Assembly: GCA_040752595.1 (NCBI GenBank)
Contig: JBFMGX010000030.1
Coordinates: forward strand, 25,557 to 57,909
Reading direction: 5' to 3'
DNA from: Candidatus Zixiibacteriota bacterium
Lineage (GTDB): Bacteria > Zixibacteria > MSB-5A5 > WJJR01
DNA: 32,353 nt
Part shown: positions 5,791 through 29,833 of the stretch, piece by piece
Layout: every line of letters starts with the position of its first letter
Position numbering within the stretch: the stretch's first letter is position 1
Notes under the pieces: generated by a model
What the model was told of the DNA's origin: nothing
The model's database searches: none
What the model saw: the letters and a program-made list of their open reading frames with translations, nothing else
Program-made: the position numbers and the translations under genes

Positions 5791-5835
5791 CTGCTGGGTT
5801 GAAAGCCCAGGGGGCTCTAAGCCCCCTGTCCGCCA
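5791..5835. repeat. Family C palindrome (GGGGGCT/AGCCCCC) after aspS
   Basis: Two hairpins in tandem: CTGGGttgaaaGCCCAG and then GGGGGCTctaAGCCCCC followed by TGTCCGCC. Related copies are at 7541-7590, 8216-8285 and 26541-26567. It may stall or end aspS transcription, but no T-run follows. Confidence 0.6.
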
Positions 5836-5855
5836 CGATCGAAACCTGCCCGGCT

Positions 5856-5906
5856 AACCTCTCCCTCCGGGAGAGGTCGCCCGCCTGCGGCGGGCGGGTG
5901 AGGGAG
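5856..5906 (+). repeat. Family A repeat (copy 1), abutting the start of the Omp85-like gene
   Basis: The copy reads AACCTCTCCCTCC-GGGAGAGGT, then a GCCCGCC/GGCGGGC hairpin, then GGTGAGGGAG. The other copies are at 17085-17202, 19446-19541 and 29198-29314. The terminal purine run ends two bases before the TTG start codon of the next gene. Confidence 0.75.
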
Positions 5907-5908
5907 TC

Positions 5909-7519
5909 TTGCAGCCCGTACCATCGATCTCCAGCTTCCTTCGGGTTCAAGCCGTCGTCGTGGCCTTGGTGTCGACGCTGCTGACCGCGCAATTGTCCGC
6001 CGCGACGACGTACATCGGCCGCATCGAAATCCAGAATCTCGACATCTACTCACCCGAAGAGGCGACCAGAGGTTGGCTCTATCGCACCGCCAACATCCTG
6101 CATGTCCAGACACGGGCTGGACTGATTCGCCGTTTCCTGTTGTTCCGCGAGGGTGACGTCTACGATCCGTTCCTACTGGAAGAATCGGAACGCAATCTCC
6201 GACAACTGCCGTTTCTGCGCCGCGTGTCGATCACGGCCGCGCCGCCCCAAGACAGCATCGTGGACGTCGAGATCATCACGCAGGACAGTTGGACCACCGA
6301 GCCGACGGGGGCCTACCGATACTCCGGGGGAACGGCCACCTACGATCTCGAGATCAAGGAGAAGAATCTCTTCGGAACCGGACGCGCGCTGGCGCTGCGG
6401 TATGCCCGTGAGACCGAGCGCATCGTCCGATCACTGTCGTACGGAGATCCATGTTTATTCGGCCCCTACTGGGGCGCCCGGATGTCGCTGGCCCGGAACA
6501 CCGACGGGCACGAGTACAAAGCCGAGATCGAACGGCCGTTCTTCTCCCTGCTGACGCGGTGGCAGGCGCGCCTCGCCGGACTCGACCTGCGACGATCCGA
6601 GACGATCTACCGCGAGGGCGAAATCGACGCGCGATATCGCCGGGACCATTGGGGATTCGAAACGGAGTGTGGCGTCGCTCTAACGACATCGCCATCGCGT
6701 GCGCAACGGCTCCTGCTCGGATCCGTCTTGTGGAATGACGAGTTCGGTCACGACACCGACCGCCCGGATGATATTCTCCCCGAGAACCAGGATTTCCGCT
6801 TCCTGACCTTGGGATACGAAAGCGCCGGAAGTTCTTTCTTGAAAGTCAACTACGTGAACCGCGGCATCCGCTTCGAGGACTTCAACCTGGCGCGGCGTCT
6901 CATCGCCCGGTTCGGTGTCTCCCCACGCGCGTTGGGGCCGTCACGAACGACCCTGTTGCTGCAACTGGGAGTGGAGCAGGGAGTGGCACTGGGCACAGGC
7001 CGCTTCGTCCAGATGGTACTGGCGTACCAGACGCGTTGGGACCGATCCCCGCAAAACGAAGTTCTCTCCGCCGAGGGGCGACTCGTATACAAGCATGGCA
7101 GCTGGGGGCCACAGACATCGATCGCGCGGGTGCGGTACGATCAGGCTTGGCGTCCCGACCGCGACTGGCAACTCGTGGCCGATGGCGACAACGGGTTGCG
7201 CGGCTACCACTTGCACTCTTACGCTGGTGATCGACGCCTGATTGCCAATTTCGAGCATCGCCTCTTCTCCAGAACCGAACTGCTACAGGTCGTCTCTCCC
7301 GGAGCGGCGATCTTCGCCGACATCGGTACGGCAGTGTCGCCCGGCATCCCGATGCGGCGCGCCCGCGTTGGTGCCGACATGGGCGCCGGCCTCCGGCTCG
7401 GACTTTCGCGTGCTGCGACTCACGATATCATTCGCCTCGATTTCGCGTGGGCGCTGAATCGGGACCCCCTGGGACGGCGAGGCCTGTTGATCTCATTCGC
7501 CACCGGTCAGGCGTTCTGA
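5909..7519 (+). CDS. Outer-membrane beta-barrel protein of the Omp85/BamA superfamily with one POTRA domain
   Basis: A 536-residue outer-membrane protein. A signal peptide (hydrophobic VQAVVVALVSTLL, cleavage after about SAA at residue 32) precedes a single POTRA-like domain at about 36-112 ('LfreGDvYdpflLeESeRnLRqLpFLr.v.I'). The rest is barrel, with alternating strands and a GDNGLRGYH motif near residue 430, the counterpart of the Omp85 'VRGY' loop. The protein ends in ...SFATGQAF with the C-terminal Phe of outer-membrane strands. Full BamA has five POTRA domains and about 800 residues, so this is a short Omp85 relative, not BamA itself. The start is TTG, the only start that keeps the whole signal peptide; the family A repeat ends just before it. 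The client or substrate is unknown. Confidence 0.85.
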   Translation: MQPVPSISSFLRVQAVVVALVSTLLTAQLSAATTYIGRIEIQNLDIYSPEEATRGWLYRTANILHVQTRAGLIRRFLLFREGDVYDPFLLEESERNLRQLPFLRRVSITAAPPQDSIVDVEIITQDSWTTEPTGAYRYSGGTATYDLEIKEKNLFGTGRALALRYARETERIVRSLSYGDPCLFGPYWGARMSLARNTDGHEYKAEIERPFFSLLTRWQARLAGLDLRRSETIYREGEIDARYRRDHWGFETECGVALTTSPSRAQRLLLGSVLWNDEFGHDTDRPDDILPENQDFRFLTLGYESAGSSFLKVNYVNRGIRFEDFNLARRLIARFGVSPRALGPSRTTLLLQLGVEQGVALGTGRFVQMVLAYQTRWDRSPQNEVLSAEGRLVYKHGSWGPQTSIARVRYDQAWRPDRDWQLVADGDNGLRGYHLHSYAGDRRLIANFEHRLFSRTELLQVVSPGAAIFADIGTAVSPGIPMRRARVGADMGAGLRLGLSRAATHDIIRLDFAWALNRDPLGRRGLLISFATGQAF

Positions 7520-7540: not shown

Positions 7541-7590
7541 AGGACAGGGGGCTTTCAGCCCCCTGCGGGCACGGCGGGCCGTGCCCCTAC
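7541..7590. repeat. Family C palindrome (copy 2)
   Basis: GGACAGGGGGCTttcAGCCCCCTG is followed at once by a second palindrome, GGGCACGgcgggCCGTGCCCC. It lies in the gap between the Omp85-like gene and the TPR gene. Confidence 0.6.
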
Positions 7591-14913: not shown

Positions 14914-15076
14914 GGATGCTGAAAAAGGCCAATCCATGTCATTCTGAGCCCCGCCGCTCTCTGGCGGGGCGGAGAATCCGGTGTTGTTCTCATAGGGAGA
15001 AACAGCAGATCCTTCGCTTCGCTCAGGATGACAATGGTGGGGTCGATCCGCATTTCCTGAGTTTTTCAGCAACCTG
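14914..15076 (+). mobile_element. Family B MITE-like element (copy 1, ~163 bp)
   Basis: Outer ends GGATGCTGAAAAA and TTTTTCAGCAACCTG form imperfect terminal inverted repeats. Inside, an arm with CCCGCCGCTCTCTGGCGGGG is followed by AACAGCAGATCCTTCGC and CTCAGGATGACA (core 14938-15034). The copy at 29673-29833 is 161 bp, lies in the opposite orientation by its ends, and shares ends and core; a worn copy is at 26371-26464. It carries no open reading frame. A small palindrome GTAGGGGTGTA...TACGCCCCTAC at 14873-14900 lies just before it. Confidence 0.65.
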
Positions 15077-17084: not shown

Positions 17085-17202
17085 CTCCCTCACCCGATTC
17101 GGCCTCCGGCCGAATCGACCTCTCCCGGAGGGAGAGGTTAGTCCCACGTTATCTCCGAGGAGTTCCCCCTCTCCTCTCTGGGGAGAGGGCTGGGGTGAGG
17201 GG
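17085..17202 (-). repeat. Family A repeat (copy 2, double)
   Basis: On the minus strand, a CCCCTCACC...GGGGAGAGG half (17165-17202) is followed by an AACCTCTCCCTCC-GGGAGAGGTCG half with a GATTCGGCC/GGCCGAATC hairpin, ending GGGTGAGGGAG (17085-17140). It lies in the gap between the BatA-like gene and the ABC-F gene. Confidence 0.75.
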
Positions 17203-19445: not shown

Positions 19446-19541
19446 CCCCTCACCCTACCCTCTCCCCAGAGGGGAGAGGGGAAGCCCAACCTCTCCCTCC
19501 GGGAGAGGTCGATCCACCGCCAGCGGATCGGGTGAGGGGGC
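19446..19541 (-). repeat. Family A repeat (copy 3, double)
   Basis: Both halves are present: CCCCTCACCC...GGGGAGAGGGG (19446-19481) and AACCTCTCCCTCC-GGGAGAGGTCG with a GATCC/GGATC hairpin ending GGTGAGGGG (19488-19539). It lies 38 bases upstream of the BatA-like gene. A separate palindrome, GTCAGGAGcacagggCTCCTGAC, is at 19600-19622. Confidence 0.75.
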
Positions 19542-26221: not shown

Positions 26222-26370
26222 GGCCTCTCCTTTGCGCGGAAAGGGTGATCGATCCCCGACCCTGCCGCCTATCGCGCCCCGCGTAAGGTATTGTTGAATT
26301 CCCCTTCCCGTCCAGCGCAAAATTCCCGGTCATTGAGGCACCCGACACGTTGTTTGGAAACCCAACCCCT

Positions 26371-26464
26371 GTCGTCCTGAGTCCCGCCGCTCTCTGGCGG
26401 GGCGAAGGATCTGCTTTTCTGCGGAAGAGAAACAGCGGATCCCTCGATCCGCTCGGGATGACAT
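26371..26464 (+). mobile_element. Family B element (copy 2, worn)
   Basis: Core similar to 14938-15034: GAGTCCCGCCGCTCTCTGG and CGGGGCGAAGGATCTGC, then AACAGCGGATCCCTCG and CTCGGGATGACA. Flanking bases only weakly match the terminal repeats of the other two copies. The 26222-26601 gap holds only this element and a family C hairpin. Confidence 0.6.
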
Positions 26465-26540
26465 TAGACGCCGGATCGCTCCATCCATATTCGGCAGTAG
26501 CTCACTGACTTCCGATCCCATTCAAGAACACGGCTGCTTG

Positions 26541-26567
26541 GCGGACAGGGGGCTTTCCCCCCCCTCA
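26541..26567. repeat. Family C palindrome (copy 4)
   Basis: GCGGACAGGGGGCTTT is followed by CCCCCCCCTC, a decayed hairpin of the GGGGGCT/AGCCCCC type. It lies ~35 bases past the stop codon of rarA (minus strand). Confidence 0.5.
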
Positions 26568-27942: not shown

Positions 27943-29193
27943 CTACCAAAATGTCCAGAACTTCCGAATCAGCAGTCCCTCAAACGGAATCTGCTCTTGG
28001 CGAAGAACGCGCAAGAAATGCCCCAGTGATCTGAGATTCGCTTCGGTCAGCCACACCGCGGAATCCGGTGGCACTGCCAATGGAGAATGGAGTGACCAGA
28101 AATATGGGTTTCTGTTGATCACGAGCATTCCGACTCGTTTGGGATCCGTTGATCCCCAATCCGGGACCATCTCCAATTGAAACGCCCCAGTACTCAGCAC
28201 CCATGCACCGGGGAAATGCAGGGAAAACGGCTTGGCCTCATCTTGTTCGTTGTCTGATTCACAGAACCGGACACGTCCGTAGCGATCCATCACGAAGTTG
28301 TAGCCCGGTCCCCGTTTCAGCAGATTGAACGTTTCCCGATCAAGAGGGCGAGGGACGCCGGACACATCGTATCGACCCTCAAAGAAGCCCTTGAATTGAT
28401 CCTGGATGGCATATGCCTCTCGGTTCGGCCAGAGCGTGTCGGGCGCTGAGTCAATTATCGAGGCGAGCGTAGAAGCGGTGGGGACAAGGGCCTCGATTCC
28501 TTGGAATCCCCAAGCCCGAATCTCTGCGGCGCGAGCCATGATTGACGTGATTGAATCGACAGCTCGTAAGTTGTACGTTTCAGGTTTGGATCGCGCGTGG
28601 TCTGGGGGCGGCGGATACAAATCCATCCACTCCGGCAGCATGCGTCCGGTTGCCTGCGGCGCTTCATTGTCGGGGACCTTGGCGTCGACGCCCGCCAGGT
28701 AGCGCGAGACATCGCGGGCGTACTGGTCGCGGACCTTGGCGTTGATGCTGTCTGTGGCGTACGAGGGATAGTATCCCTGTTTGGCCCAGAGCAGGAAACG
28801 GTTCTGGTTGACCGTGACAATCGCGAAGCCGACCAGCGCTTCATCCTCGGTCTTGCACCAGATGCCACGGAATCCGGCCAGTCCGGGCGCGCCCGGCTCG
28901 CGGTCATAGCGCGTGATCTTCTTGATCGGCAGCTTGGGGGCATTGGCGGTCAGACGCCCGATCGCCTTGTCGAGCGATTCCAGATCGGGGACAATGACAC
29001 GGAAGCACTCGAATAACGGCCTGGCCTCATCCGGCGTCCCCGGCACCGCGACAAGCGGTTCATCGACAAACCAGCCGTTCTTCTCCGGGACAATCTCCAA
29101 GAGCGTCCGCATGATCGGCGGCATCGGCTCGAAGGCGTGGGATGCTGCCGGCGAAAGAGCGCCAATGACCAAGATTGCCAGTATGATAGGCAT
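27943..29193 (-). CDS. Exported protein of unknown family
   Basis: I do not recognise this 416-residue protein. An N-terminal signal peptide ([20 protein letters not shown]) marks export. The rest has no membrane segment or repeats. Visible features are an acidic/Pro-rich loop ([20 protein letters not shown]), a C-terminal region rich in aromatic residues ('[21 protein letters not shown]'), and the end '[13 protein letters not shown]'. The 3' part is poorer in GC than the 5' part (27/60 at 28081-28140, 39/60 at 28621-28680). ATG 29193 has AGGGAG four bases upstream, lent by the family A repeat; the open frame beyond it merely translates that repeat. It precedes rarA by 18 bases and is likely in one transcript with it. 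Confidence 0.75.
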
Positions 29194-29197
29194 GCAC

Positions 29198-29314
29198 TCC
29201 CTCACCCGCCCGCCTACCGGCGGGCGACCTCTCTCCCTCACTCCGTTCGGGACTCCGCCGGAGGGAGAGGTTATCATTCTCCCTCTCCCCTCGGGAGAGG
29301 GTCGGGGTGAGGGA
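29198..29314 (-). repeat. Family A repeat (copy 4, double), abutting the exported-protein gene
   Basis: On the minus strand: TCCCTCACCCCGACCCTC-TCCC halves (29281-29314), then AACCTCTCCCTCC-(GGCGGAGTCCC)-GGGAGAGAGGTCGCC, a CCGGTAGGCGGGCGG segment, and GGTGAGGGAG ending at 29198 (29198-29272). It stops about four bases before the ATG at 29193. Confidence 0.75.
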
Positions 29315-29361
29315 ATCGGACGTGGCAGTCCAGTCATCATCGATTCCTCATTGGTGTATGC

Positions 29362-29672: not shown

Positions 29673-29833
29673 CAGGTTGCTGGAGAAAAGCAACCATTGT
29701 CATTCCGAGTCCCGCCGCTCTTTGGCGGGGCGAGGAATCTGCTTTCCTTTCATAGGGAAAACAGCAGATCCCTCGCTCCGCTCGGGATGACAATTGGGCG
29801 CAAACGATCACTTCCATGCGTTGTTCAGCATCC
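29673..29833 (-). mobile_element. Family B MITE-like element (copy 3, ~161 bp)
   Basis: The ends match copy 1 in reverse: CAGGTTGCTG on the left and GTTCAGCATCC on the right. The core carries GTCATTCCGAGTCCCGCCG, CTCTTTGGCGGGGCGAGG, ACAGCAGATCCCTCG and CTCGGGATGACAA (29699-29793). A short duplicated ACCA-like string flanks it (TACCA before, CACCA after), a possible target-site duplication. Confidence 0.6.

Follow-up and report, generated by a model that had tools for sequence, protein, structure and literature searches.

The 32,353-nt stretch of the Candidatus Zixiibacteriota bacterium genome analysed here (the window) carries two unrelated genes whose probable start codons each lie directly against a copy of the same dispersed repeat, which we call family A. 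The first gene (5909–7519, + strand) has a TTG start and encodes an outer-membrane protein with Omp85 and POTRA domains (Pfam E-values 1.1e-5 and 8e-4); the second (27943–29193, − strand) encodes a predicted exported protein starting at ATG 29193, with an alternative in-frame GTG at 29205 inside the repeat. The copy before the first gene (5854–5906, +) consists of a hairpin CCTCTCCC-TCC-GGGAGAGG, the trinucleotide TCG, a palindrome CCCGCC/GGCGGG and the end GGGTGAGGGAG, while the copy before the second gene (29197–29276, −) has an enlarged first hairpin and adjoins the gene start with the same GGGTGAGGGAG end. We asked whether the repeat provides the two genes with their ribosome-binding site (RBS), as the initial annotation of this DNA had proposed.

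The identical purine-rich string that the annotation had noticed before the two starts is indeed present. GGGCGGGTGAGGGAG has two exact matches in the window, at 5892–5906 (+) and 29211–29197 (−), together with one match carrying 2 mismatches, whereas shuffled windows gave a mean of 0.18 matches at up to 2 mismatches and no shuffle gave 3. One further base, a T, is shared after this string, and GGGCGGGTGAGGGAGT (5892–5907, + and 29211–29196, −) ends 1 nt before TTG 5909 and 2 nt before ATG 29193. The TTG follows GGGAG by 2 nt, and the ATG stands 3 nt after GGGAG and not four bases as stated. Within the string, GAGG (5900–5903, + and 29200–29203, −) is a candidate Shine-Dalgarno (SD) core, complementary to the anti-SD sequence and presumably able to pair with 16S rRNA, and it lies 5 nt before the TTG and 6 nt before the ATG, which is normal SD spacing. 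The genome uses SD-like motifs, as AGGA, GGAG or GAGG was found at a spacing of 4–11 in 60 of 212 surveyed genes, compared with 22 and 31 in control positions.

That family A is a genuine repeat family, also claimed in the annotation, is borne out by 91 copies in the 2.94-Mb genome, counted as exact matches to the pattern (degenerate copies fall outside this count), while the pattern read backwards gave 0. A single copy (L090) was called inside a predicted open reading frame (ORF), on the opposite strand. By its aspS neighbours the genome belongs to Candidatus Zixiibacteriota. Of two congeners, one contains 15 copies and the other 6, and a single copy occurs in one further genus of the family; the remaining single matches among 132 genomes of the phylum mostly lack the palindrome of the element. 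Family A is therefore a genus-level expansion.

If the repeat were a selected carrier of RBSs, with its GGTGAGGGAG end kept because it gives downstream genes an SD sequence, the two sites with GAGG at 5 and 6 nt before unrelated genes would be the expected outcome, as would the GAG found after GGGTGAGG in 35 of the 91 copies. The placement of the family speaks against it. In the sequence stretches around the copies, on which the flanking-gene and distance analyses were run, orientation relative to co-directional flanking genes was unbiased (39 vs. 34, p = 0.64). Gene starts were set with a home-made coding-score caller that misses signal-peptide starts, so that the distance statistics are only approximate, and for this reason we also counted any in-frame start. 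A sense gene lies downstream of 45 copies. None of them had a coding-score start within 0–10 nt, where 2.9 were expected, and four had any in-frame start within that distance (at 0, 1, 2 and 3 nt), again with 2.9 expected under uniform placement (probability of at least 4, 0.33); the copies at 2 and 3 nt are those at TTG 5909 and ATG 29193. Counts of in-frame starts per 9-nt bin outward from the repeat (4, 4, 4, 7, 9, 9, 7, 6, 10) show no excess in the first bin. The congeners agree: a sense gene follows 8 of their 21 copies, once with an in-frame GTG 7 nt away, where the coding score favours a start at +58. The genome-wide distance check suggested with the initial annotation, under which copies falling at random with respect to start codons would refute its proposal, was thus carried out, and the copies do fall regardless of start codons or orientation. 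RBS supply is not a property of family A, and chance would be expected to produce such sites in a genome where 91 copies occupy short intergenic gaps. On distance and orientation across the genome the selected carrier is already largely refuted, and with the points that follow from the architecture and folding of the repeat it becomes the least credible of the explanations we considered, with next to no probability.

Aligned copies follow the plan CTAACCTCTCCC-TCC-GGGAGAGG-TCG-palindrome-CGGGTGAGGGAG, in which CCTCTCCC and GGGAGAGG form a hairpin and TCG leads into a variable palindrome that GGGTGAGGG follows. The inner palindrome varies in sequence yet remains complementary, with at least 6 perfect outer pairs in 77 of 91 copies and with A-T/C-G and C-G/G-C swaps compensated in both arms. 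Over all 91 copies the palindrome falls into a few discrete types (CGATCC in 56, CGCCCG in 13, CGCTTG in 5, and others), and its two arms vary jointly, which would fit exchange or concerted drift. The repeat does not end in GGTGAGGGAG, as had been supposed; 45 of 91 copies (at p < 0.05; about 4.5 expected) run on into a recognisable conserved tail of about 38 nt with the consensus GAGTTCTTTCGTCCGCTCATTCTGTCAGAGGCCCTTAG, so that in half of the copies the element passes beyond the sequence a selected RBS carrier would have as its end. In 45 of 91 copies an inverted arm, CCCTCACC, is found upstream, at no more than about 120 nt, and in no copy is it found downstream. Half of the family A copies are therefore ordered inverted pairs with a triplex-motif arm, a REPIN-like composite. 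Conservation of the purine-rich end, which a selected RBS carrier would attribute to translation, is accounted for by its place as third strand in a triplex plan and by the inverted partner.

We turned to predicted RNA folding for the question of whether the repeat would work as an RBS where it happens to occupy the SD position. Over positions −13 to −4 the mean predicted probability of being unpaired is 0.08 for the Omp85-like gene and 0.17 for the exported-protein gene; for the latter it drops to 0.02 once the leader is extended to take in the inverted partner. Over 210 genes the median was 0.41; 2 of these genes are as low as or lower than the first gene and 15 as low as or lower than the second. 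The copy at 29197 has as its inverted partner a classical triplex motif (TM) unit, CCCTCTCCCCTCGGGAGAGGGTCGGGGTGAGGG (29281–29313, +), whose CCCUCACC arm is predicted to pair with the GGGUGAGGG of the repeat in minus-strand RNA. With this partner the minus-strand leader folds at a predicted −87.9 kcal/mol (z = −6.8), with GAGG fully paired to CCCUCACC. By fold prediction, then, neither site has an accessible SD sequence in the mRNA. Given this strong structure in the two leaders, the RBS that the repeat offers is probably poor rather than good, and a GAGG predicted to be buried is a further point against a selected carrier. Of the proposal that two unrelated genes draw ribosome-binding sequence from the repeat, what survives is that the repeat occupies the position and that GAGG is suitably spaced; what does not is any such function of the family.

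The same occlusion could be read as a regulatory switch, in which GGUGAGGG is sequestered by the CCCUCACC of the partner or by the CUCUCCC arm and translation of the downstream gene becomes conditional. The stability of the second leader, its paired GAGG and the low accessibility at both sites would fit such a switch. However, no more than two copies are placed at an RBS, the inverted pairing goes with the repeat wherever it is placed and is missing at the copy at 5854, and occlusion may be a mere cost, so we regard a switch as very unlikely. Slighter still is the chance that the composite is an outward-facing, self-occluding initiation module, with GGTGAGGG at both ends capable of acting as an SD sequence and masked by the inverted partner; if it were, copies landing at gene starts would become structure-controlled leaders.

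We favor, with good though not full confidence, the explanation that family A is a genus-level noncoding repeat resembling the TM/PIT elements, two copies of which accidentally serve as weak, structure-limited RBSs. Its plan would be that of a triplex motif in which a palindromic hairpin separates the duplex stem from the GGGTGAGGG third strand. Often set head-to-head with a TM-like unit of inverted orientation, the family would have dispersed among the intergenic regions in either orientation. Two copies out of 91 would have come to lie directly before two genes for exported proteins, where their purine-rich end occupies the SD position and probably acts by default as a weak RBS limited by structure. 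That the homologues of the two genes in relatives stand without the repeat counts in favor of this explanation.

This explanation depends on where the two genes start. For the Omp85-like gene an in-frame TAA at 5855–5857, inside the repeat, closes the frame upstream, and TTG 5909 is the sole in-frame ATG, GTG or TTG between this TAA and GTG 5960. Only TTG 5909 yields a signal peptide with a charged n-region (the N-terminus, MQPVPSISSFLRVQAVVVALVSTLLTAQLSA, is signal-peptide-like), and among the homologues, found in genomes G005 and G006 at 46% identity, the 46%-identity homologue L009 has its start about as far from the mature region; TTG 5909 is the likely start. The exported-protein gene has homologues in its genus and family, and a scan of the longer ORF (27943–29340) found no Pfam family. 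Its reading frame is open across the entire repeat and beyond. ATG 29193, which opens a hydrophobic, signal-peptide-like stretch, is the likely start, with an ambiguity of four codons toward GTG 29205; the latter lies within GGGTGAGGG and would place M-R-E-C ahead of that stretch, where several homologues carry a charged segment.

These features raise the alternative that the two genes had their N-termini remodelled when the repeat landed in their 5′ ends, and that it contributes, beyond an RBS, part of the coding sequence or even the initiation codon, which would be GTG 29205 in GGGTGAGGG for the second gene and, for the first, possibly a TTG left over from a tail (GAGTCTT) that has decayed. 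The open frame of the second gene, the M-R-E-C extension and the longer charged n-region of several homologues, which the ATG form lacks, would be explained by it, and so would the frame of the first gene, closed only by the repeat's own TAA, and the GAGTCTT that follows the repeat in 5 of 91 copies. On the other hand, tail similarity past 5906 is not significant (p = 0.23), for which reason we rejected an origin of TTG 5909 from the tail of the repeat; an RBS for GTG 29205 would sit in a strong hairpin stem; and no empty orthologous site was found among the loci compared. Congener G001 has no Omp85-like orthologue (a weak, distant match only) and congener G002 has none, and the nearest aspS neighbourhoods (L127, L131 and L163) contain neither an Omp85-like gene nor the repeat. 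We consider remodelling unlikely, if less so than a regulatory switch.

Some observations weigh against accidental RBSs as the explanation. The coding-score caller put the starts of the two genes beyond the repeat, by 53 and 72 nt, and that TTG 5909 and ATG 29193 are the real starts is our inference; the distances are, as stated, approximate. Moreover, placement is not entirely even, as the median distance to starts is 85 nt on the GGTGAGGG side and 135 nt on the other side (p = 0.003). Stops are skewed likewise (61 vs. 102 nt), and the skew in starts, matched by that in stops, is consistent with a bulky inverted partner on the 5′ side.

The closest described relative in plan is the intrastrand triplex motif of the TM-ECO/PIT elements, which have a C-rich stem, a G-rich stem and a third strand and occur in many intergenic copies (Holder et al., 2015; PMC4666352). 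In E. coli, TM-ECO elements lie 10–310 nt from neighbouring genes with no preferred distance and no strand bias and form inverted pairs, and earlier work, as cited in that paper, had found the triplex motif to lack promoter or terminator activity (Holder et al., 2015). Family A likewise has a stem CCTCTCCC, a stem GGGAGAGG and then GGGTGAGGG as the putative third strand, and it is multicopy, intergenic and free of strand bias. Its stems are 8 nt, however, it carries the conserved tail in half of its copies, and TCG plus a variable palindrome of about 15–25 nt replaces the 3-nt second loop, which is why it falls outside the published pattern CCCTCNCCC-N3–6-GGGNGAGGG-N3-GGGNGAGGG (Holder et al., 2015). 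The partner unit at 29281–29313 matches this pattern exactly, and the genome holds 27 exact classical TM units (control, 0). Judged by sequence, family A is a TM-like variant with a putative triplex and not a TM-ECO member. Azospirillum plasmids, among them one of Azospirillum argentinense (L251, 540–780), hold a palindrome-bearing triplex-motif element, CCCTCTCCCGCCCGGGAGAGGG-TG-CCCGCGGCAGCGGGC-GGGTGAGGG, of the same plan as family A (84–85% identity over 47 nt) and with a second inverted copy nearby, in a phylum different from that of the family A host.

REPINs and BIMEs are inverted pairs of REP sequences, which are short palindromic intergenic units. Family A resembles them in that its units are palindromic and intergenic and half of them are paired in a fixed inverted order, with the inverted GGTGAGGG arm always upstream and often only a few nt away. 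It differs in its unrelated sequence and in the lack of a repeat-flanked Y1 transposase gene; none of the 7 Y1 transposase matches with a RAYT-type domain in the genome (L207–L213) has a family A hairpin within 1.5 kb, and we rejected RAYT-driven mobility on this ground. Our search of the literature for repeats that supply SD sequences returned only the start-codon precedent of the pneumococcal BOX elements, small interspersed repeats from which a neighbouring ORF can take its start codon (PMC3049150). Family A, in contrast, gives an SD-like stretch with the start just outside the repeat, and the two are unrelated in sequence.

The other two family A copies of the window lie at 17085–17141 (−), with an inverted TM-like unit at about 17166–17201 (+), and at 19485–19540 (+), with one at about 19447–19482 (−), so that three of the four copies have an inverted partner. 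No Rfam RNA family matched the window. A second dispersed family, GTCATTCTGAG...GCCGCTCTCTGGCGGGGCG...GAATCTGCT followed by AAACAGCAGATCCYTCGCTYCGCTCRGGATGACA, has three copies in the window (14924–15035, 26357–26465 and 29685–29794), and a third short repeat with the hairpin CAGGGGGCTNTNAGCCCCCTGTCC occurs at 5805–5831, 7542–7565 and 26539–26565, one copy standing directly upstream of the family A copy at 5854. Elsewhere, family A copy L109 is directly followed by the AAACAGCAGATCCCTCGCTTCGGGATGACA of the second family, an arrangement suggestive of nested insertion or of common landing sites.

Chance can bring a dispersed purine-rich repeat into ribosome-binding regions, and no function should be proposed for a repeat beside a start codon until that copy has been weighed against all the others. 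In Ca. Zixiibacteriota the triplex motif takes a palindrome-bearing, inverted-pair form, which, together with its look-alike in Azospirillum, slightly broadens a known class of bacterial repeats.
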